From: Lentisphaerota bacterium
Lineage (GTDB): Bacteria; Verrucomicrobiota; Lentisphaeria; Victivallales; Victivallaceae
Length of the DNA stretch: 49,676 nt
Assembly (NCBI GenBank): GCA_015061615.1
Contig: SUWE01000018.1
Location: 1 to 49,676, forward strand
Reading direction: 5' to 3'
The notes under the pieces were generated by a model. That model was not told the DNA's origin. It saw only the letters and a list, made by a program, of their open reading frames with translations, and did not search any database. Position numbers and translations under genes: made by a program. Below are positions 1,344 to 47,945 of the stretch, one piece after another. The stretch's first letter is position 1; each line of letters opens with the position of its first letter.

Positions 1344-2282
1344 TTAAAGGTTTTGAGTATACTCCCGGAGAATTTTTTTCGCACCAGGAAACGTTTTATC
1401 TTTGAGTTCAAAAATGATGGTGAATGAATTTTTTCCGCCCGGCAAAACTTCTTCGTTGGGACCGATCGGCTCCAATTCGCAAAAATCCCGGCAGTAAAAT
1501 ACACACGCCGTCATGCCCGATTCATTATTGTACCGCCGCTCCGGAAAAACCGGATAGGTGATGGTCAAAAGCAGATCATCCGGCGAGAAATAGTGCAATT
1601 TACCCGACAAAGAATCAAAACTTAATTTCGGATCGACCGGGAAAGGGTGGATCGCAGCATATTTTCCGGTAATTTCCACCGCTTTATCTTGCGGACGCAT
1701 CAACAGCGTGCCGCGATGATAGGAGTAATATCCGGCGGGATAACGGCTGACCCCCTTGCGCGGAATCACACATACACCGCCGGGAGTGACCAGAATCCGT
1801 CCCCAGAAGTTCCACTGTACCGGCGTGGAAGAAATATTTGTCATGATCTGGGTCACGCTCAAGCGGGAATCATTTTCCGATAATTCAAAAATTCTGGTCA
1901 ACTGCACTCCGGTACGCGGATCAGGCTGACTTACGGCAATGGCAGTTGTATTTGAAATTTTATGCAGCTGCCACTTCTTTTCCCATAATAACGGATGGCG
2001 GGGGATGGTGATTTCCGGACCGATGTCAAATCTGCCGCCGGACGGGTCAACTTGTTTGCCGCCATCGGGGAAGTTCCATCCCGCCTGAGCATTGTCCAAA
2101 TAAAGAATATTGCGACCATTCAAGGAATACTCCAGCAATCTGCCGCCGTAAGCCGCGATCACTGCACGGGTATGAGAATTTTTCAATTCAATACAGTTGC
2201 CGTAACCGAAAAAACTGCATACTCCGCCCGACAGCACTCCGGCGACTGACATTACTATTGCTGTGAGAAAACTTTTACGCAT
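1344..2282 (-). CDS. Secreted DUF4380-like (galactose-mutarotase-fold) protein
   Basis: About 312 residues. The N-terminus M-R-K-S-F-L-T-A-I-V-M-S-V-A-G-V-L is a signal peptide, so the protein is probably periplasmic or a surface protein. The body has the beta-rich pattern of aldose-epimerase-like sugar-binding folds, including A-A-Y-G-G-R-L-L-E-Y and W-N-F-W-G-R, and resembles DUF4380 proteins. I chose the ATG at 2282 because a GGAG sits 9 bases upstream. The alternative ATG at 2297 directly follows the stop of the upstream gene and has no visible ribosome-binding site. It lies in the leftward operon between the DUF4838 gene and the SSS transporter, which supports a role in sugar binding or epimerisation. 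No catalytic residues can be assigned by eye. Confidence 0.7.
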   Translation of the reverse strand: MRKSFLTAIVMSVAGVLSGGVCSFFGYGNCIELKNSHTRAVIAAYGGRLLEYSLNGRNILYLDNAQAGWNFPDGGKQVDPSGGRFDIGPEITIPRHPLLWEKKWQLHKISNTTAIAVSQPDPRTGVQLTRIFELSENDSRLSVTQIMTNISSTPVQWNFWGRILVTPGGVCVIPRKGVSRYPAGYYSYHRGTLLMRPQDKAVEITGKYAAIHPFPVDPKLSFDSLSGKLHYFSPDDLLLTITYPVFPERRYNNESGMTACVFYCRDFCELEPIGPNEEVLPGGKNSFTIIFELKDKTFPGAKKILREYTQNL

Positions 2283-2297
2283 CGCAATTTGCTCCAT

Positions 2298-4553
2298 TCA
2301 TTTTGCCGGAATCAATTCCAGAGCATCAACATACAATTTTTTTACCGGACCATTGGGGGCGGCAAGATTGAAAATCAACAGCTGTTCGCCCTTGTATTCC
2401 ACTGTACCGCCGGTGATCCAGCGATACTCTTTTTCGGACAATTCTTCCGCATTGATCCGGCGGATGGTGGTGATTTTCATGATTGACTGATTTTGCGCTC
2501 CGAAAGCTGCCGCATAGCCTTTTTTGCCGTTCATTTCCGCGCGCACTCTCATGCGTATACGGTATTTGCCGGGAACAAATTTCGGATAATCACGCATCCG
2601 CCACTGCACATACCAATTACCATCGGGACGCTGCACAAGAACTTCGCCAGTCAGCGATTTTTCATCTTTTACCCGCTCCAGACCGGTCTGATCTTTTCTG
2701 GACATAGCATAACATGATTGCATAGCGGGCAGGATGACCGTCCCGGCGGGGCGTTTTTTAATGTAGTCGATCAAGCCGATTTCATACTCAAACTGGTCAA
2801 GCTGACTGTCTGCCTGACCTTCGCGCGATTCAGAAATGCCGCTGACTTTGTATTTTTTCAACAGTCTCCGCAATTCCGTGATTTTTGCCAGGTATTCTTC
2901 AGCGGATTTTGCAGCACCGACCCCCTGTTCGATCGCATGCCAGAGTATACACATTTTTTCAAACTCAACTTCTTTGATCACCAACGGGTCAGTCGCCGCG
3001 GCAAGAGCCTGTTCAATCAATTTTTCAGCGGCAGGGCCGAATTCAGCGGAAAAAGTGAAGTTGCTTCCGGGTTTATTTGCCGCATGGTGTCTTTCCCATT
3101 CCCGGATAAGCAGATCGTTGTATTTCAGTATAAAAGGAGCAACTTTTTCGCCGTAAAATCCGTTGATGTAATCTTCGGCAAGTTTTTTGATATCCCAGTT
3201 CGGATTCCACATTAATTTCTGAGTTACCCAGGTGCGCATTGCCGCCAGTGAGCCGAGTTCATTACTGTAATTGGCAAGCATCATAACGCCCTTGACTTTT
3301 TTATCCCGGAAATAACGGATACTGTTTTCCAACACCGGCAAATCGGCACGCGGTTTCAGATAAAAACGGAAATTGGTCATGTGATCCCAAATCAGAACAC
3401 CGCCCTGCGTAATTTCCGCCCATTTATTGATATACGCATAATCAGGAGTATCTTTGATAAAATCAAAAGGATAAGTATTGATTCTGTTGAAAGTCATAAA
3501 ACGGATCATCACATTGGGGGCAGGGCGCACATGACGCGGCGGCTTCATCGACCAGCGGTAGGCGAGGGTGCTGATCGGTACATCGGGGTAGACTTTGCCT
3601 ACTTCTGCGGCGACCGCGTTGATAAAGTGGATGACCAGACCGCTGGGCGCGCCTTCAAGTTTCACAATTTTTGCACATTCAGGACATTCGCAATAGTCAT
3701 CGTTGTCGGCTTGACTTATGGTGAGAAACTCCATATCAGGCTGTTCGCTGATTGCTTTGATCGCCTGCCGGGCAACGATTTTGCGTACTTCGGGATTGGT
3801 CATACAGAACTGTCCGCCTGAGTGAAAATTGGTACGGCTGCCATTGCGGATGGCGAAATATTCCGGATGGGCAGCAAAAAAATCCTGCCGCCGCATAAAA
3901 CGGTGTATCATGGTATGCTGAAAATATTTCGGACTCTGCCGCAACTGGCGCAATTTATTTGCCTCTGCCCACTTTTCATTGATGACCCTGTAACTTTTGA
4001 ACGCCCAGTCGGAATAAACTATCCGCTGATAAAATGGCGGTTGATAACTGCGCGGAACGACCTTCGCCTGAGTGATGATCCCGGCGGGGGAAATCGCTTT
4101 CTGATGTTTATGATAATAACGCCACGAAAGGTCTTCTTCCAGAAATGATGTCACCGCGTTGAGCAGCCCGTCGGGACAACTGGCGGAAAGGACAATGTTA
4201 AGTTTCTCATCCACAGAAATTTTATAACCGTCCGCCCCCAGACCGACGGCTTGGTCATCAAGGGTAATTTGCAAGGGGGCATCGGCTGAAAAATCACAAC
4301 CGCTGACCACTTTCCAGTTGGCTTTCAGAAAATCCGCCGCTTTTCCCGGCACTCCGCTCAAACGGTAGTTGCTTTTGCCGTTGACGGTAAGCCGGATGAT
4401 TTTTCCTCTGCCTGCGGGAGCAAGTTCATTTTTCCATGCTCCGGATAATGAAAAGCTCAGTAACAGCATCACGGCTGTCAGTAAAACGACCATGCCGGAA
4501 CGGCTTGAGTCCGGTACCGCAGAAAAGAAAAATTTTTTCCAGGAAGCTCTCAT
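2298..4553 (-). CDS. DUF4838 domain secreted glycosidase-like protein
   Basis: A 751-residue protein. It has an N-terminal basic stretch and hydrophobic segment (about residues 18-40), so it is exported or anchored. An alpha-glucuronidase/GH20-like N-terminal beta domain (about 50-150) precedes a TIM-barrel-like DUF4838 core (about 160-480). The hallmark Cys-containing motif D-N-D-D-Y-C-E-C-P-E-C-A is present, together with H-P-E-Y-F-A-I-R and F-C-M-T-N-P-E. The C-terminal 130 residues look like a carbohydrate-binding jelly roll. DUF4838 proteins occur in polysaccharide loci of Bacteroidota and PVC bacteria, but their substrate is not settled. An AAGGAG ribosome-binding site precedes the ATG. 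The gene has its own predicted promoter and a copy of the 43-bp element, so it can be transcribed separately from the pseudopilin upstream. Confidence 0.8.
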   Translation of the reverse strand: MRASWKKFFFSAVPDSSRSGMVVLLTAVMLLLSFSLSGAWKNELAPAGRGKIIRLTVNGKSNYRLSGVPGKAADFLKANWKVVSGCDFSADAPLQITLDDQAVGLGADGYKISVDEKLNIVLSASCPDGLLNAVTSFLEEDLSWRYYHKHQKAISPAGIITQAKVVPRSYQPPFYQRIVYSDWAFKSYRVINEKWAEANKLRQLRQSPKYFQHTMIHRFMRRQDFFAAHPEYFAIRNGSRTNFHSGGQFCMTNPEVRKIVARQAIKAISEQPDMEFLTISQADNDDYCECPECAKIVKLEGAPSGLVIHFINAVAAEVGKVYPDVPISTLAYRWSMKPPRHVRPAPNVMIRFMTFNRINTYPFDFIKDTPDYAYINKWAEITQGGVLIWDHMTNFRFYLKPRADLPVLENSIRYFRDKKVKGVMMLANYSNELGSLAAMRTWVTQKLMWNPNWDIKKLAEDYINGFYGEKVAPFILKYNDLLIREWERHHAANKPGSNFTFSAEFGPAAEKLIEQALAAATDPLVIKEVEFEKMCILWHAIEQGVGAAKSAEEYLAKITELRRLLKKYKVSGISESREGQADSQLDQFEYEIGLIDYIKKRPAGTVILPAMQSCYAMSRKDQTGLERVKDEKSLTGEVLVQRPDGNWYVQWRMRDYPKFVPGKYRIRMRVRAEMNGKKGYAAAFGAQNQSIMKITTIRRINAEELSEKEYRWITGGTVEYKGEQLLIFNLAAPNGPVKKLYVDALELIPAK

Positions 4554-4613
4554 TTTTTTACTCCTTGTTTTGGGGATTTACAGCAAAGATTTTTTTTTGC
4601 TTCTTTGAAGCAT

Positions 4614-4642
4614 AATATATCACCATTAACGGGAAATGTAAA
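4614..4642 (-). promoter_or_regulatory. Predicted promoter of the DUF4838 operon
   Basis: Read leftwards, a -35 TTTACA (4642-4637) and a -10 TATATT (4619-4614) are separated by 17 bp, about 60 bp before the DUF4838 ATG. The -35 box lies at the downstream end of the duplicated 43-bp element, the geometry of an activator bound against the -35. The promoter at 6837-6864 has the same hexamers. Confidence 0.6.
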
Positions 4643-4678
4643 TAGTTGAAAAATTACAATTATAGCACTATTGTAAAC
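4636..4678. repeat. 43-bp duplicated operator-like element, copy 1
   Basis: Bases 4636-4678 are identical over 43 bp to 6858-6900. The element holds an inverted repeat, TTACAAT / ATTGTAA with a 9-bp spacer, and TTTACA at both ends of its minus strand. An 11-bp tract, TTTAGCATAAA, follows 24 bases beyond each copy at identical spacing (4703-4713 and 6925-6935), while the sequence between diverges. That is the pattern expected of conserved regulator contacts. The likely ligand is the AraC protein encoded at 6946. Confidence 0.7.
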
Positions 4679-4778
4679 TAAATTGATGAAAAACACCGCT
4701 TATTTAGCATAAAAATAAATTTTCATCCACTGTATCGGCTGATCGCAATAAATAAAAAATTATTCAGGTGCAGTCGGA

Positions 4779-5861
4779 TCACACAGTGACTTTGGCAATG
4801 CAAACCTCTGTTTGCATTCCGGAATCAGTAAAAATACAGGCATCGCTGATAATGGAACATTTTCCGCATTCAGCAGTATGAAAATTTCCGTAAAGACCGG
4901 TATTGGAATATCTTTTTTTCATCGGCAAAATAATCATTTCGGCAGATTTTTTCAATCGCAGTTTTTCTCCGCAAACAACTGCTTCGCTTGCCCACAACGG
5001 GGCGCGGTAACGGAAAACTCCGGCATTTTCGCAACTTTTTCTGGTGTAGGCAAGATAAAGTTTATCACCGGGGCAGAACCAATGCTGCTGGGTGGAGGAG
5101 GTGACAAATTCACTGCCATCATCAAACAGCCACTTTTGCGGGCGGGAAAAATTCAGACCGTCGTCGGAAACGGCAAAATATCCGTTCCCGTCTTCGGCAC
5201 GGATAGTCAGAAAAAAACGGTTTTCATAACGGATAATTGATGGCTCGATCAACCCTCTGCCTGTGGCATTGGTCATCGAATTTCCTTCGGTGATTGAGGC
5301 GATTTCAAAAGAATCGGAAAGGGAAATCTTCAATACCTGCACGGCAAAACGGGAGTCCGGGGGGAGGATATCAAAATAGATCGGGAGCAAAAATTCTCTT
5401 TCTCCGGTAAAACACAGCTGGGTACAAGCCGCACGCCACTCGACATGCGGATTACCGAACATCCGGACAGGATAAAAGCTCTTTTCTTTGCTGTCATAAA
5501 CGGTATAATAACTTCCTCTGACAATGTCGGAAAAAGCACACATTTTTTTCTTATGATATCTGGCGGTGCAGCCGATAAAAAGGACATGCCGTTTATCCGG
5601 GAAGGTAAAACAACGGACATCTGCAATTCCGATGATATTGTCTCCTGCGATGACTTTACTTTCAAATCCCGGTACATTACGCGCTTCGTTCCAGCTGATT
5701 CCGCCGTCAAAACTTTCGCAAAATTCACATGCCCCGTAGCAATCGGAACTGAAAATACGTTGAAAACTCATTAATAAATGGTTTTCACTTAAAACAGCGA
5801 CGGCGGGATGAAAAGCATTGTTCCCGCACGCCGCCGGAATGGATAAAAAATCTATATTCAT
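4779..5861 (-). CDS. Sialidase-like (BNR/Asp-box) beta-propeller protein
   Basis: A 360-residue protein with an Asp-box, S-F-D-G-G-I-S-W (SxDxGxxW), near residue 55 and repeated strand patterns such as A-V-S-D-D-G-L-N-F, typical of six-bladed sialidase/glycosidase propellers. I see no signal peptide from the ATG at 5861, so it may be cytoplasmic. A TTG at 5894 would add 11 residues but also gives no clear leader. Propellers of this kind either cleave terminal sugars or are catalytically dead; the arginine triad of true sialidases cannot be confirmed by eye. It lies downstream of the pseudopilin gene, separated by a hairpin at 5930-5949, and upstream of the DUF4838 promoter. Confidence 0.65.
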   Translation of the reverse strand: MNIDFLSIPAACGNNAFHPAVAVLSENHLLMSFQRIFSSDCYGACEFCESFDGGISWNEARNVPGFESKVIAGDNIIGIADVRCFTFPDKRHVLFIGCTARYHKKKMCAFSDIVRGSYYTVYDSKEKSFYPVRMFGNPHVEWRAACTQLCFTGEREFLLPIYFDILPPDSRFAVQVLKISLSDSFEIASITEGNSMTNATGRGLIEPSIIRYENRFFLTIRAEDGNGYFAVSDDGLNFSRPQKWLFDDGSEFVTSSTQQHWFCPGDKLYLAYTRKSCENAGVFRYRAPLWASEAVVCGEKLRLKKSAEMIILPMKKRYSNTGLYGNFHTAECGKCSIISDACIFTDSGMQTEVCIAKVTV

Positions 5862-5929
5862 TACTGAAAAAATAATGTCTGCCAAAGGGAGCAATTCCCA
5901 AGATCAAAAAAATATACGAAATATTAGTT

Positions 5930-5949
5930 CAAGGCATTTTTATGCCTTG
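5930..5949 (-). promoter_or_regulatory. Intercistronic hairpin after the pseudopilin gene
   Basis: A perfect 8-bp stem (CAAGGCAT / ATGCCTTG) with a TTTT loop sits 15 bases after the pseudopilin stop. No U-run follows on the minus strand, so it is more likely an mRNA-stabilising or partially terminating hairpin than a full terminator. It would allow more pseudopilin than downstream enzyme. Confidence 0.45.
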
Positions 5950-5963
5950 CTCTGACAAGCTGC

Positions 5964-6731
5964 TTATTTGTAGGTGTTCTGATTGCCTGCGGCATCAAGA
6001 ACTACTACTTCATAAGGACCGCCATTGCACTTTTCCGCAATCGGCACAAATTCCGGTGCGGTCAAACCGACAGCATGACCATCCCAGAAAGCGGTGTTCG
6101 CCACTTTGCCGTGAATAGTTTTAATATTACCTCTTGAGTTGTTCACAGTATTCCAATTCCAGGCGGTAGCCATACTGTTGGGAGTGCCTTTGTCAGCGCA
6201 AGTACTACTGGAGGCGAAGCCGGTATCAACCAGAGTCAGAGAGGAGGACGGTGAGGGAATCTTTTTCAGCACCACAAAATGATTCGTACTGTCGTAAAAA
6301 AATGCACCTGTAGGAACAGTATACGGCTGAATGCCGAATGAACCGTACATATTGTAGTGACTGAGACCGCCGGCACTGGCTGGCAAGTAATCTGTCGAGG
6401 GGCAGATGTAGTGGTCAGGAGCAGTAGTCGGATTCCCGGGGATAGTACCCCAGCCGGTCATCGTTTCGGCTCCAGTTGTCGGTGTTGAAGCATAAACCCG
6501 TCCCCAGCGATGATTGCCGATCACGGACGGCATAACATCGTCACTGCCCTGTGCGTACATTAAAAATGCCATGCAGTTCTGTTTGAGATTGTTAAGGCAA
6601 CCGGCTGCCCGTCCTCTTTCCCTTGCACTGTTGAGCGCCGGCAACAATATTGCTGCCAGAATGGCGATGATTGCAATAACGACGAGCAATTCGATAAGAG
6701 TAAAGTAACCTTGTTTCTGCGATGAACTCAT
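5964..6731 (-). CDS. Pseudopilin (prepilin-type leader, C-terminal xDGH motif)
   Basis: A 255-residue protein with a short leader, then [17 protein letters not shown] as the N-terminal pilin helix, and [18 protein letters not shown]. Near the C-terminus, A-F-W-D-G-H matches the xWxDGH/H-X9-DG signature common in PVC pseudopilins of the DUF1559 type. These are processed by a prepilin peptidase and inserted in the inner membrane, where they act in type II secretion or type IV pilus-like machines. The residue before the F-T-L-I-E motif is Tyr, not the usual Gly. The gene is first in the leftward operon and directly divergent from an AraC gene. No pilus assembly genes are in the window. Confidence 0.88.
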
Positions 6732-6772
6732 TTTTTTAACTCCTTTTCAAACTCCTTTTTTTTCCGATCTCT

Positions 6773-6804
6773 GCCATTTCCGGAAATGTTTTCATGAAAA
6801 TGGC
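6773..6804 (-). promoter_or_regulatory. 5'UTR inverted repeat upstream of the pseudopilin gene
   Basis: The leader between the predicted promoter and the ATG at 6731 contains a 14-bp perfect palindrome, CATTTCCGGAAATG (6775-6788). An alternative stem pairs GCCATTT (6773-6779) with AAATGGC (6798-6804). It could be an mRNA hairpin or a protein-binding site; I cannot tell which. Confidence 0.35.
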
Positions 6805-6836
6805 GGACAAAAAACCATTTTTTGCCCTCTTACAAT

Positions 6837-6864
6837 AATATATCATCAAAAATTTTTATGTAAA
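6837..6864 (-). promoter_or_regulatory. Predicted promoter of the pseudopilin operon
   Basis: Read leftwards, -35 TTTACA (6864-6859) and -10 TATATT (6842-6837) are separated by 16 bp. The hexamers and position next to the 43-bp element match those of the DUF4838 promoter. This leaves a 5'UTR of about 100 bases. Confidence 0.6.
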
Positions 6865-6900
6865 TAGTTGAAAAATTACAATTATAGCACTATTGTAAAC
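6858..6900. repeat. 43-bp duplicated operator-like element, copy 2
   Basis: Identical to 4636-4678, and located between the divergent pseudopilin and AraC genes. On the plus strand the same bases contain TTGAAA (6868-6873), 17 bp, then TATTGT (6891-6896), a plausible promoter for the AraC gene itself. A single bound regulator could therefore control both directions and autoregulate. Confidence 0.7.
6868..6896 (+). promoter_or_regulatory. Possible AraC gene promoter inside the 43-bp element
   Basis: TTGAAA, 17 bp, TATTGT, placing a start near 6903, about 40 bases ahead of the ATG at 6946. The overlap with the element suggests autoregulation. Confidence 0.4.
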
Positions 6901-6945
6901 AAAAATACAAAAATATTGTCAGTTTTTAGCATAAAGAGTGTGATT

Positions 6946-7809
6946 ATGAAAAATTTTCAAATTTCCAAAACCGAGTTGCTGCGCCGTTGTACGGAAGTGA
7001 AAAATGAGCTTGATTGTCCTGCATTGCTCTATTTTGATGCACCGGAACATCAGATAATTCATGCTGTGCCGCGTTTGATATTTCAGGTAAGCGGTACTGC
7101 CCGGCACAGTTTCGGGGCAGAAGTAAAAATGGATGTTATAGATTCTCCCAAACTGTTGTATTGTTCCCGTTTCGGTTATTTGCGTTCGGACTATTCTACG
7201 CCGGGGTGCAGTATATCTTTCAGTTATTATCCGAACTATATCCGTGCCATGCACATTGATTATGACGGAGTAAATCAGCCGCCGACTATGCGGGATGTTT
7301 ACTATCACAGCAGTAATCCGTTATCCGAAGCCGGGATGGAGCTGCTCAACTGCATTGAGATGCTGCACCGTTACGATAAGGATGAAATTGCCGGGAAATT
7401 GCTTGCTCCGCTTTTTCTGCTGACGCTGGATGAGTTGCAGGGCAGTGAAAGTTCATCTGTTTTGCATGTGCGGTCATTGTGGAACGAGATCAACAGTTTT
7501 CTTCAGGAACACCGTACCGAGGTTGTCAGCCGGAAGCAGCTGGCAAAAAAATTCCACATTTCGCCGGGGTATGTTTCCAATTTAAGCAAAAGGTATATGG
7601 GGATGAGTTTTTCCGAAACCAAACTGCATTATCAACTGGAACATGCGGAAAATCTGCTTCGCAACACGCTGTTGAATATTGATGAAATAGCCTCTGAATG
7701 CGGTTTTAACAGTTCAAATTATTTTATCCGTTGTTTCAAAAAAGTTTACGGACAAACGCCGCACGTTTACCGCTACAATGCCCCTCTGAAAAAGAATGAA
7801 ACGGAGTAA
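6946..7809 (+). CDS. AraC-family transcriptional regulator, module 1
   Basis: About 287 residues. The last 100 carry the paired helix-turn-helix of AraC/XylS proteins: S-R-K-Q-L-A-K-K-F-H-I-S-P-G-Y-V in the first and I-D-E-I-A-S-E-C-G-F-N-S-S-N-Y-F in the second, ending F-K-K-V-Y-G-Q-T-P. The N-terminal 170 residues are a ligand-binding domain with weak cupin character. I chose the ATG at 6946 (AGAG upstream). An in-frame start at 6868 would place coding sequence across the 43-bp regulatory element. The gene is divergent from the pseudopilin operon and is the obvious candidate to bind the duplicated element. The inducer is unknown. Confidence 0.88.
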   Translation: MKNFQISKTELLRRCTEVKNELDCPALLYFDAPEHQIIHAVPRLIFQVSGTARHSFGAEVKMDVIDSPKLLYCSRFGYLRSDYSTPGCSISFSYYPNYIRAMHIDYDGVNQPPTMRDVYYHSSNPLSEAGMELLNCIEMLHRYDKDEIAGKLLAPLFLLTLDELQGSESSSVLHVRSLWNEINSFLQEHRTEVVSRKQLAKKFHISPGYVSNLSKRYMGMSFSETKLHYQLEHAENLLRNTLLNIDEIASECGFNSSNYFIRCFKKVYGQTPHVYRYNAPLKKNETE

Positions 7810-40261: not shown

Positions 40262-41077
40262 TTATTTATCGTATTCATCAGCCCAGTTGAGTTTTTTACC
40301 CGAGAATGAGCCGTCATCATTGCTGTCAAGGCAGATATTGCCTCGGACATTTTTAACACTGCCGTCACACATTGCCACATTCATACCGACACTTGACGGT
40401 ACATCATCACCTTTTTTAGCGGCATCATATACCAGAATATTGCCAGCGGAATGGCGATATCCGACTCTGCCGTAACTGCTGGCATCTATGCCGCTGTACC
40501 ATGTTTCAATTTCGGCATGCTCCAGAAAAAGATAAACCTGACTTGCCCGCTGGATGGAACCAGCTTTACTGGAGTTGTTGTTGTGGGGATCGGATTTGTA
40601 TTCGCACCAGTCTTTTCCTGTAACGAATTGATTGGCAGTATAATTTGTTCCAGTACCGCAGTAATTGCCCTGACTGCTCGTGCCAGAGCGCATTGAAGCA
40701 CTGGGGCAGTGAAACAACGGCATTTCCAGTGTTGACGGTACATGATACTGCATTTTGGCATTGACGCGGACATCGTATCCGGCATAACGCGCCAGAAGCG
40801 GTATCCAGCTGTAATAACCAGAAGCACCTTGCCGCGGAACATAATAGTCAGAATCATTCATATACATTCCGTTGAAAGTACCCAGTTGTTTCATGTTGTT
40901 TATGCAGCTTGCTGCTCTGCCGCGTTCACGGGCACTGTTAAGGGCAGGCAGCAGAATCGCCGCCAGAATAGCGATAATCGCGATGACTACAAGCAGTTCA
41001 ATAAGGGTGAAACCTGCGGTTTTTCTGTCAGATTTGTGACAGAAATGCTCACTTTGGAATCTGGTTTGTTTTTCCAT
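40262..41077 (-). CDS. Pseudopilin, module 3
   Basis: 271 residues with an AAGGAAA upstream of the ATG. The leader of 22 residues ends A-G before [17 protein letters not shown], the canonical G/F prepilin peptidase site. Then [18 protein letters not shown], nearly as in module 1. The C-terminus has C-D-G-S-V-K. It is the only one of the three with Gly at -1. It is divergent from an AraC gene and cotranscribed with the 569-aa gene 27 bases downstream. Confidence 0.88.
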
Positions 41078-47811: not shown

Positions 47812-47945
47812 GGCAATTTCAAAAGTTCTCAAAAATTCTTGAAAATTCCCGTTGCGATCTTAAAAAGGGGCGTTTTCATCTCATTAACGGTGTCTTTCCG
47901 ATCGACTTTGGCAATTACCTCATTGACTTTGCAATTACATCATGA
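47812..47945 (+). repeat. Dispersed intergenic repeat, copy C (middle deleted)
   Basis: The left part (47812-47876) matches copy B at 49531-49596, through CAATTTCAAAAG..CTCAAAAATTCTT and GCGATCTTAAA..GGGGCGTTTTC. It then lacks the hairpin of copies A and B and continues with a segment related to copy A (GATCGACTTTxGCAATTACCTCATT). It ends about 30 bases before the kinase ATG. Confidence 0.6.

Follow-up and report, generated by a model that had tools for sequence, protein, structure and literature searches.

The window considered here, meaning the whole 49,676-nucleotide stretch that was analyzed, is contig 27 of a 2.71 Mb assembly in 109 contigs that is 84.65% complete and comes from an uncultured Lentisphaerae bacterium lineage. 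It carries a 43-bp element in two copies, each fused to the –35 hexamer of a leftward promoter, and a gene for an AraC-family regulator (araC) that lies beside one of them. Copy 2 is located between araC and a divergent pseudopilin gene, with a tentative BNR-like gene next, and copy 1 between this BNR-like gene and a DUF4838 gene, with a DUF4380/mutarotase-like gene next. Our subject is this element, a candidate binding site for the adjacent regulator, and the two operons behind it. The features of the locus are, in window coordinates:

1344..2297, minus strand: DUF4380/mutarotase-like protein, second gene behind copy 1 (DUF4380 E 2.5e-06 and NF052227 E 7.2e-05, both under the cut-off)
2298..4553, minus strand: DUF4838 protein, first gene behind copy 1 (Pfam DUF4838, E 3e-70)
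4614..4619, minus strand: –10 TATATT of the DUF4838 promoter, spacer 17 (sequence)
4636..4678, minus strand: copy 1 of the 43-bp element (predicted AraC-type site plus –35), before DUF4838 (exact repeat; kept in the related genomes G008, G015 and G021)
4637..4642, minus strand: –35 TTTACA of the DUF4838 promoter, 14 bp from the core (sequence)
4657..4678, minus strand: 22-bp core of copy 1, reading GTTTACAATAGTGCTATAATTG leftward (invariant at 18 of its 22 columns over nine copies)
4703..4713, no strand assigned: TTTAGCATAAA tract beyond copy 1, its TAGC box 42 bp from the core TAGC box, a probable auxiliary half-site by inferred function
4779..5862, minus strand: tentative BNR-like protein (P0004), second gene behind copy 2 (a weak label: Pfam BNR E 0.15, below the cut-off; one Asp-box)
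5964..6731, minus strand: pseudopilin with a prepilin-type N-terminal methylation motif, first gene behind copy 2 (TIGR02532, 22.6 against a cut-off of 16.3)
6837..6842, minus strand: –10 TATATT of the pseudopilin promoter, spacer 16 (sequence, promoter scoring)
6858..6900, minus strand: copy 2 of the 43-bp element, between the pseudopilin gene and araC (exact repeat, comparison with relatives)
6859..6864, minus strand: –35 TTTACA of the pseudopilin promoter, 14 bp from the core (sequence, promoter scoring)
6879..6900, minus strand: 22-bp core of copy 2 (comparison with relatives)
6925..6935, no strand assigned: TTTAGCATAAA tract beyond copy 2, TAGC to TAGC 42 bp, putative function as at copy 1
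6946..7809, plus strand: AraC-family regulator (P0001), 287 amino acids, ATG at 6946, C-terminal HTH_18 (Pfam, NCBIfam, PDB relatives of the DNA-binding half)

The initial annotation of this DNA had proposed an AraC regulon, and its reading of the letters was confirmed: bases 4636–4678 and 6858–6900 are identical (the direct repeat reaches 47 bp with one mismatch), both copies adjoin leftward TTTACA/TATATT promoters with the two spacers listed, and the TTTAGCATAAA tract stands equally far from each copy while the DNA between has diverged. The regulator has a C-terminal AraC-type double helix-turn-helix (HTH), with Pfam scores of 72.4 bits for HTH_18 (cut-off 33.6) and 62.7 for HTH_AraC (cut-off 26.6), and profile matches between its DNA-binding half and solved AraC-type domains, including that of AraC (2k9s). 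No N-terminal domain was found in Pfam, PDB matches are confined to about the C-terminal half, and the score against the NCBIfam AraC model, 49.6, is far under the cut-off of 208.

Both sites have been kept in three relatives, G008, G015 and G021, whose AraC proteins are 90–92% identical to the one studied here and in which gene order is the same and the sites are at the same places. An alignment of nine copies, of which A_G008 and A_G021b are identical so that eight are distinct, revealed blocks of very unequal conservation: the core is invariant in 18/22 columns, the next 14 bp in 10/14 and the –35 in 5/6, as against 1/10 for the first 10 bases of the –35/–10 spacer and 5/24 for the spacer from tract to core. 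The –35 lies at offset 14 in 9/9 lineage copies, the promoter spacer is 16 in 4/4 B copies and 17 in 5/5 A copies, and the TAGC-to-TAGC distance between tract and core is 42 bp in 8/9. Such block conservation with a fixed phase would not be expected of chance or of a recent duplication. The window's genome is alone in having 43-bp copies identical to each other: each of the three relatives has ATTATAA in copy 1 and, at the corresponding place in copy 2, ATTGTAA or ATTGTGA, and the identity of the two copies here may reflect gene conversion. G021 also contains extra fragments of the locus, a 4.2-kb contig (L095, G021:C43) whose region upstream of copy 1 is identical to that of G008 and, lying at the edge of a contig, an araC end of 89% identity (L096, G021:C16), which probably represent a strain mixture in that assembly.

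Close matches to the element are confined to this locus. Within its own genome, the palindrome TTACAAT-N9-ATTGTAA (4654–4676 and 6876–6898) occurs at two places with no mismatch, both of them here, at none with one and at 10 with two, a reversed-pattern control giving 7 places at two mismatches or fewer. With the 18-bp core, nothing but these two places matched at two mismatches or fewer, and a tolerance of three mismatches added three others (control, 2 places). Many copies at unrelated loci, which the initial annotation had named as an argument against its regulon, were thus looked for in an 85%-complete genome and not found. Of 60 genomes searched, 21 have a match with at most one mismatch. 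Matches at this threshold within the genus lie beside orthologous loci in the window's genome (2), G008 (2), G021 (3) and G015 (1), where the second site has two changes, and further ones occur in G012 (2), G033 (2) and G020 (1).

The palindrome proposed in the initial annotation did not hold as the conserved unit: beyond the close lineage its TTACAAT arm disappears and the TATAGCACTATTGTAAAC side persists. The arm is already TTATAAT in copy 1 of G008, G015 and G021, and a palindromic 7-9-7 operator as a general unit was rejected on its loss in distant members. The conserved unit is instead the asymmetric TATAGCACTATTGTAAAC, and the sequence kept across genera is roughly CATTTATAGCACTATTGTAAAC. 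TAG repeats occur 20 bp apart (TAGTTG / TAGCAC), the two halves not being closely alike. As a dyad, allowing three mismatches, the palindrome is unexceptional: the window contains 2 matches, and shuffled sequence has 3.2 on average. In an inverted-repeat scan upstream of 39 AraC genes, two loci stand out (C36:24130, 0/60 shuffles as high, and C39:244, 1/60), whereas at the window locus the scan covered the operator dyad but ranked another inverted repeat of the same intergenic region above it. Dyads were therefore dropped as a criterion; the evidence rests on duplication, conservation and phasing. By the measure of local repetition, the element is by far the strongest at the 39 AraC loci of the genome, with a score of 44.5, the next being 19.5 at C87.

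At that next locus (L130, G000:C87), a 27-bp near-repeat, ATAGTAAAAAAATCCAAAAAAACAGTA, lies upstream of araC with its copy about 1.75 kb away, and is possibly another duplicated operator beside another AraC gene. Weaker repeats at C92, C23 and C1:8365 were rejected as operators; they are GAG.CAATTTCAAAA ends of a repeat family. Inverted ends of this family, GAG(G/C/A)CAATTTCAAAA, are present in the window at 47813 (plus strand), 49532 (plus) and 9002 (minus) and at L111, L130, L135, L139 and other loci, and at several loci they face each other about 150–170 bp apart, like a small transposon-type element resembling a miniature inverted-repeat transposable element (MITE).

Does the site accompany this type of regulator beyond the genus? 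Searching with a profile built from 11 AraC proteins yielded, at E ≤ 1e-40, 76 matches spread over 48/137 genomes of the order; 69 of the matches were used, seven being left out as unfetched or with too little upstream DNA. A 22-bp matrix built from eight lineage sites only was scanned over 350 bp upstream. Among the 65 non-lineage members, 7 reached ≤1/500 shuffles and 9 reached ≤5/500, compared with 0 and 1 of the 38 paralogous AraC genes of the window's genome; in one of the nine, G004_C15, the best match lies beside the core on the other strand, and the best on the expected strand is in register. The distribution follows the phylogeny of the regulator. In a tree of the 69 proteins, the site is present in all eight members of the clade that holds this AraC (support 100/99), four of them being the lineage on which the matrix was trained, and the site label needs only 4 changes on the tree compared with a shuffled mean of 12.1 (0/500 shuffles as low). 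By counted positions, the TAGCA tract at 42 bp is also found in G117_C86, G117_C88 and G118_C1, of another genus.

Sigma70-like promoters were also scored at these sites, over the 80 bp beyond the core, with E. coli-like weights and without using position. Of 21 loci compared together with G004, 16 formed a first set (4 from the lineage, 8 with a significant matrix match, and G032, G115, G093 and G077 picked by resemblance), and in 16/16 of these chosen loci the top-scoring promoter places its –35 at offset 14, with spacers of 16–18. The five omitted loci, G014_C185, G126_C5, G106_C347, G122_C364 and G116_C93, gave offsets of 16, 17, 18, 14 and 9 in the fuller scoring that follows. Because the 16-locus set was partly chosen, a second scoring took all 65 non-lineage members at their best-scoring site, 64 of which were testable. 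Offset 14 was obtained in 20/64, the next commonest offsets reaching 3/64 each, and in 0/38 of the paralogue controls, which are unrelated AraC genes of the window's genome. It depends on matrix score: 8/8 at 11 or more, 4/5 between 8 and 11 (12/13 at 8 or more), 1/16 between 5 and 8, and 7/35 below 5. Several rows are near-copies (G117_C88 and G118_C1, for example), so these counts are not all independent.

Other observations weigh against this picture. The matrix result alone is weak, 9/65 compared with 1/38 giving a one-sided Fisher value of 0.059. The sister group of the clade (G014_C185, G011_C8 and G024_C358; 33–34% identity in A1) has no significant matrix match, and its sites lie at offsets 16, 20 and 20, a similar block being visible there by eye. 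Promoters taken singly score modestly: between 0 and 24 out of 200 shuffles do as well. Finally, the TAGCA tract is absent from one member of the clade, G114_C1, and in B_G008 it stands at 43 bp and not 42.

The genes behind the distant promoters vary. They encode pseudopilins (G117_C86, G118_C1), a TIM-barrel protein (G032), four-Asp-box proteins (G010, G074_C16, G115, G093 and G077, with BNR_2 confirmed by Pfam for G010) and others, and site and 14-bp phase remain constant though the downstream gene changes. A comparison of P0004 with these four-Asp-box proteins gave a best E of 0.012 in a ten-protein set, short of establishing true homology, and PDB sequence searches gave no match for P0003 (E up to 0.01) or for P0004 (E up to 0.1). 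The pseudopilin gene at 5964..6731 scored just under the Pfam N_methyl cut-off in the window scan and over it in the genome search.

Taken as a whole, the proposal of an AraC regulon with a site beside the –35 of two promoters is well supported by the confinement of close matches to the locus, by the retention of both copies in relatives and by the recurrence of the core at a fixed 14-bp phase upstream of distant homologues. The repeat is very probably the binding site of the regulator encoded at 6946–7809, fused to the –35 of an activator-dependent promoter; on comparative evidence, we regard the site as real, conserved, duplicated and AraC-type, and as probably activating two operons. If the –35 is placed at about –36 to –31, the core would span about –72 to –51 and be followed by a weaker 14-bp block at –50 to –37; an AraC dimer could occupy these as putative tandem half-sites and touch RNA polymerase at the –35, in the manner of araI1/I2 and the MtlR site. 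Since the site is present twice, one regulator would drive two operons, pseudopilin with the tentative BNR-like gene and DUF4838 with DUF4380. It is the geometry that points to binding by P0001 and to activation over repression, and the ligand would be sugar-like. AraC half-sites of E. coli carry a TAGC box. The TAGCATAA tract, 42 bp or four helical turns from the core TAGCA, is probably a third, auxiliary site, which would put an extra half-site on the same face; the TAGCA tract is kept at copy 1 too, where no araC follows. As to the autoregulation suggested by the initial annotation, the site does lie just upstream of araC, and autoregulation itself is neither shown nor excluded, because the best rightward araC promoter differs among the four orthologues.

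The type of switch and its mechanism are already familiar, and the same promoter distance recurs in distant relatives. According to the available part of the source, MtlR of Pseudomonas fluorescens, an AraC-type activator of a sugar operon, acts at PmtlE from a site that covers at least 37 bp upstream of the –35 and includes two 15-bp blocks resembling each other, one at –72 to –58 and the other at –50 to –36 (PMC4514859). These positions nearly equal those deduced for our site. MtlR belongs to another phylum and is a different regulator, its site was tested in vivo and by footprint whereas ours is predicted from sequence, its two blocks are similar whereas the two putative half-sites here resemble each other only weakly, and nothing corresponding to the 42-bp tract appears in the accessible text of that study (PMC4514859). 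The E. coli AraC system (araI1/araI2/araO2), as far as the excerpted source describes it, is similar in that the regulator gene adjoins its target operon and in having half-sites near RNA polymerase and one more away from the promoter, araO2 being about 200 bp away compared with 42 bp for the third box here (PMC6018408). No described AraC site in this lineage was found in the literature searched, which omits most subscription journals.

Three other explanations were weighed. The same AraC might bind the site and mainly repress, acting on the leftward promoters or on its own gene until a ligand releases it. This is unlikely, as the site stops 14 bp upstream of the –35 at a constant distance, leaving the promoter uncovered, and the lineage –35 TTTACA is poor, both of which fit activation better, even if AraC itself represses by looping between distant half-sites (PMC6018408, in the part available), a third box stands here at 42 bp, and in several distant members a rightward promoter starts close to the opposite flank of the core (at offset 7 in G010 and at 8 in G032, for instance). 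Binding by a transcription factor other than the adjacent AraC is less probable still: the genome has 38 other AraC-type HTH matches, and the pairing of AraC with the site is a prediction, but the element tracks this AraC subfamily across genomes, clusters on its tree and has no other close match in its own, 85%-complete genome. That no regulator is involved, the repeat being mobile, duplicated by chance or an RNA hairpin, is very improbable: the repeat is exact and includes a dyad, MITE-like repeats exist in this genome and one strand of the copy-1 23-mer folds slightly better than shuffles (z –2.34), but the 85%-complete genome has only two copies, both of which keep their places in three other genomes although the DNA around them has diverged, distant members lack the dyad, and fold energies are mostly ordinary (z –0.67, –0.05 and –0.22 for the others; –2.2 to –8.1 kcal/mol).

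A probable activating AraC site at this locus is a less surprising lead than the divergent pairing of AraC and pseudopilin genes. Pairing was counted in two genomes, the window's own and G118, of another genus, with gene starts approximated as 600 bp before the HTH. In the former, 26/39 AraC HTH matches have a pseudopilin match within 6 kb, the nearest being upstream and divergent in 24/26 and downstream on the same strand in 2/26 (binomial against one in four, 6.7e-13). In G118, the proportion is 28/53, with 18 upstream divergent, 7 downstream on the same strand, 2 downstream on the opposite strand and 1 upstream on the same strand (1.3e-5). Two more AraC/pseudopilin pairs are visible in the window, at 40262–41077/41203–42012 and 35024–35821/37124–37990. 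Verruconatronum alginivorum, another member of Verrucomicrobiota, is described in the available part of its report as having many PulG-like pseudopilins, with 67 homologues of one of them, and a pseudopilin among the genes over-expressed on alginate (PMC13274419); the window's genome has 78 N_methyl matches. AraC/pseudopilin pairing is not described for V. alginivorum in that part, the word AraC being absent from the main text (PMC13274419).

We tentatively suggest, as a possibility short of an expectation, that many catabolic loci in this group of bacteria each possess an AraC activator and a pseudopilin of their own, divergently paired, that pseudopilins could be substrate-specific surface or secretion parts co-induced with the matching enzymes, and that new operons could join by gaining an AraC site at the right –35 phase, as the DUF4838 operon would have done. 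The role proposed for pseudopilins resembles that of SusD in Bacteroidetes. For an uncultured Lentisphaerae lineage, our analysis predicts at base resolution a regulator, the site that it would bind and the two operons that it would drive, and the fixed 14-bp phase offers a rule for finding targets across the whole AraC subfamily. With the AraC/pseudopilin pairing, in turn, the reason for the presence of 78 to 106 pseudopilin-type genes per genome becomes testable.

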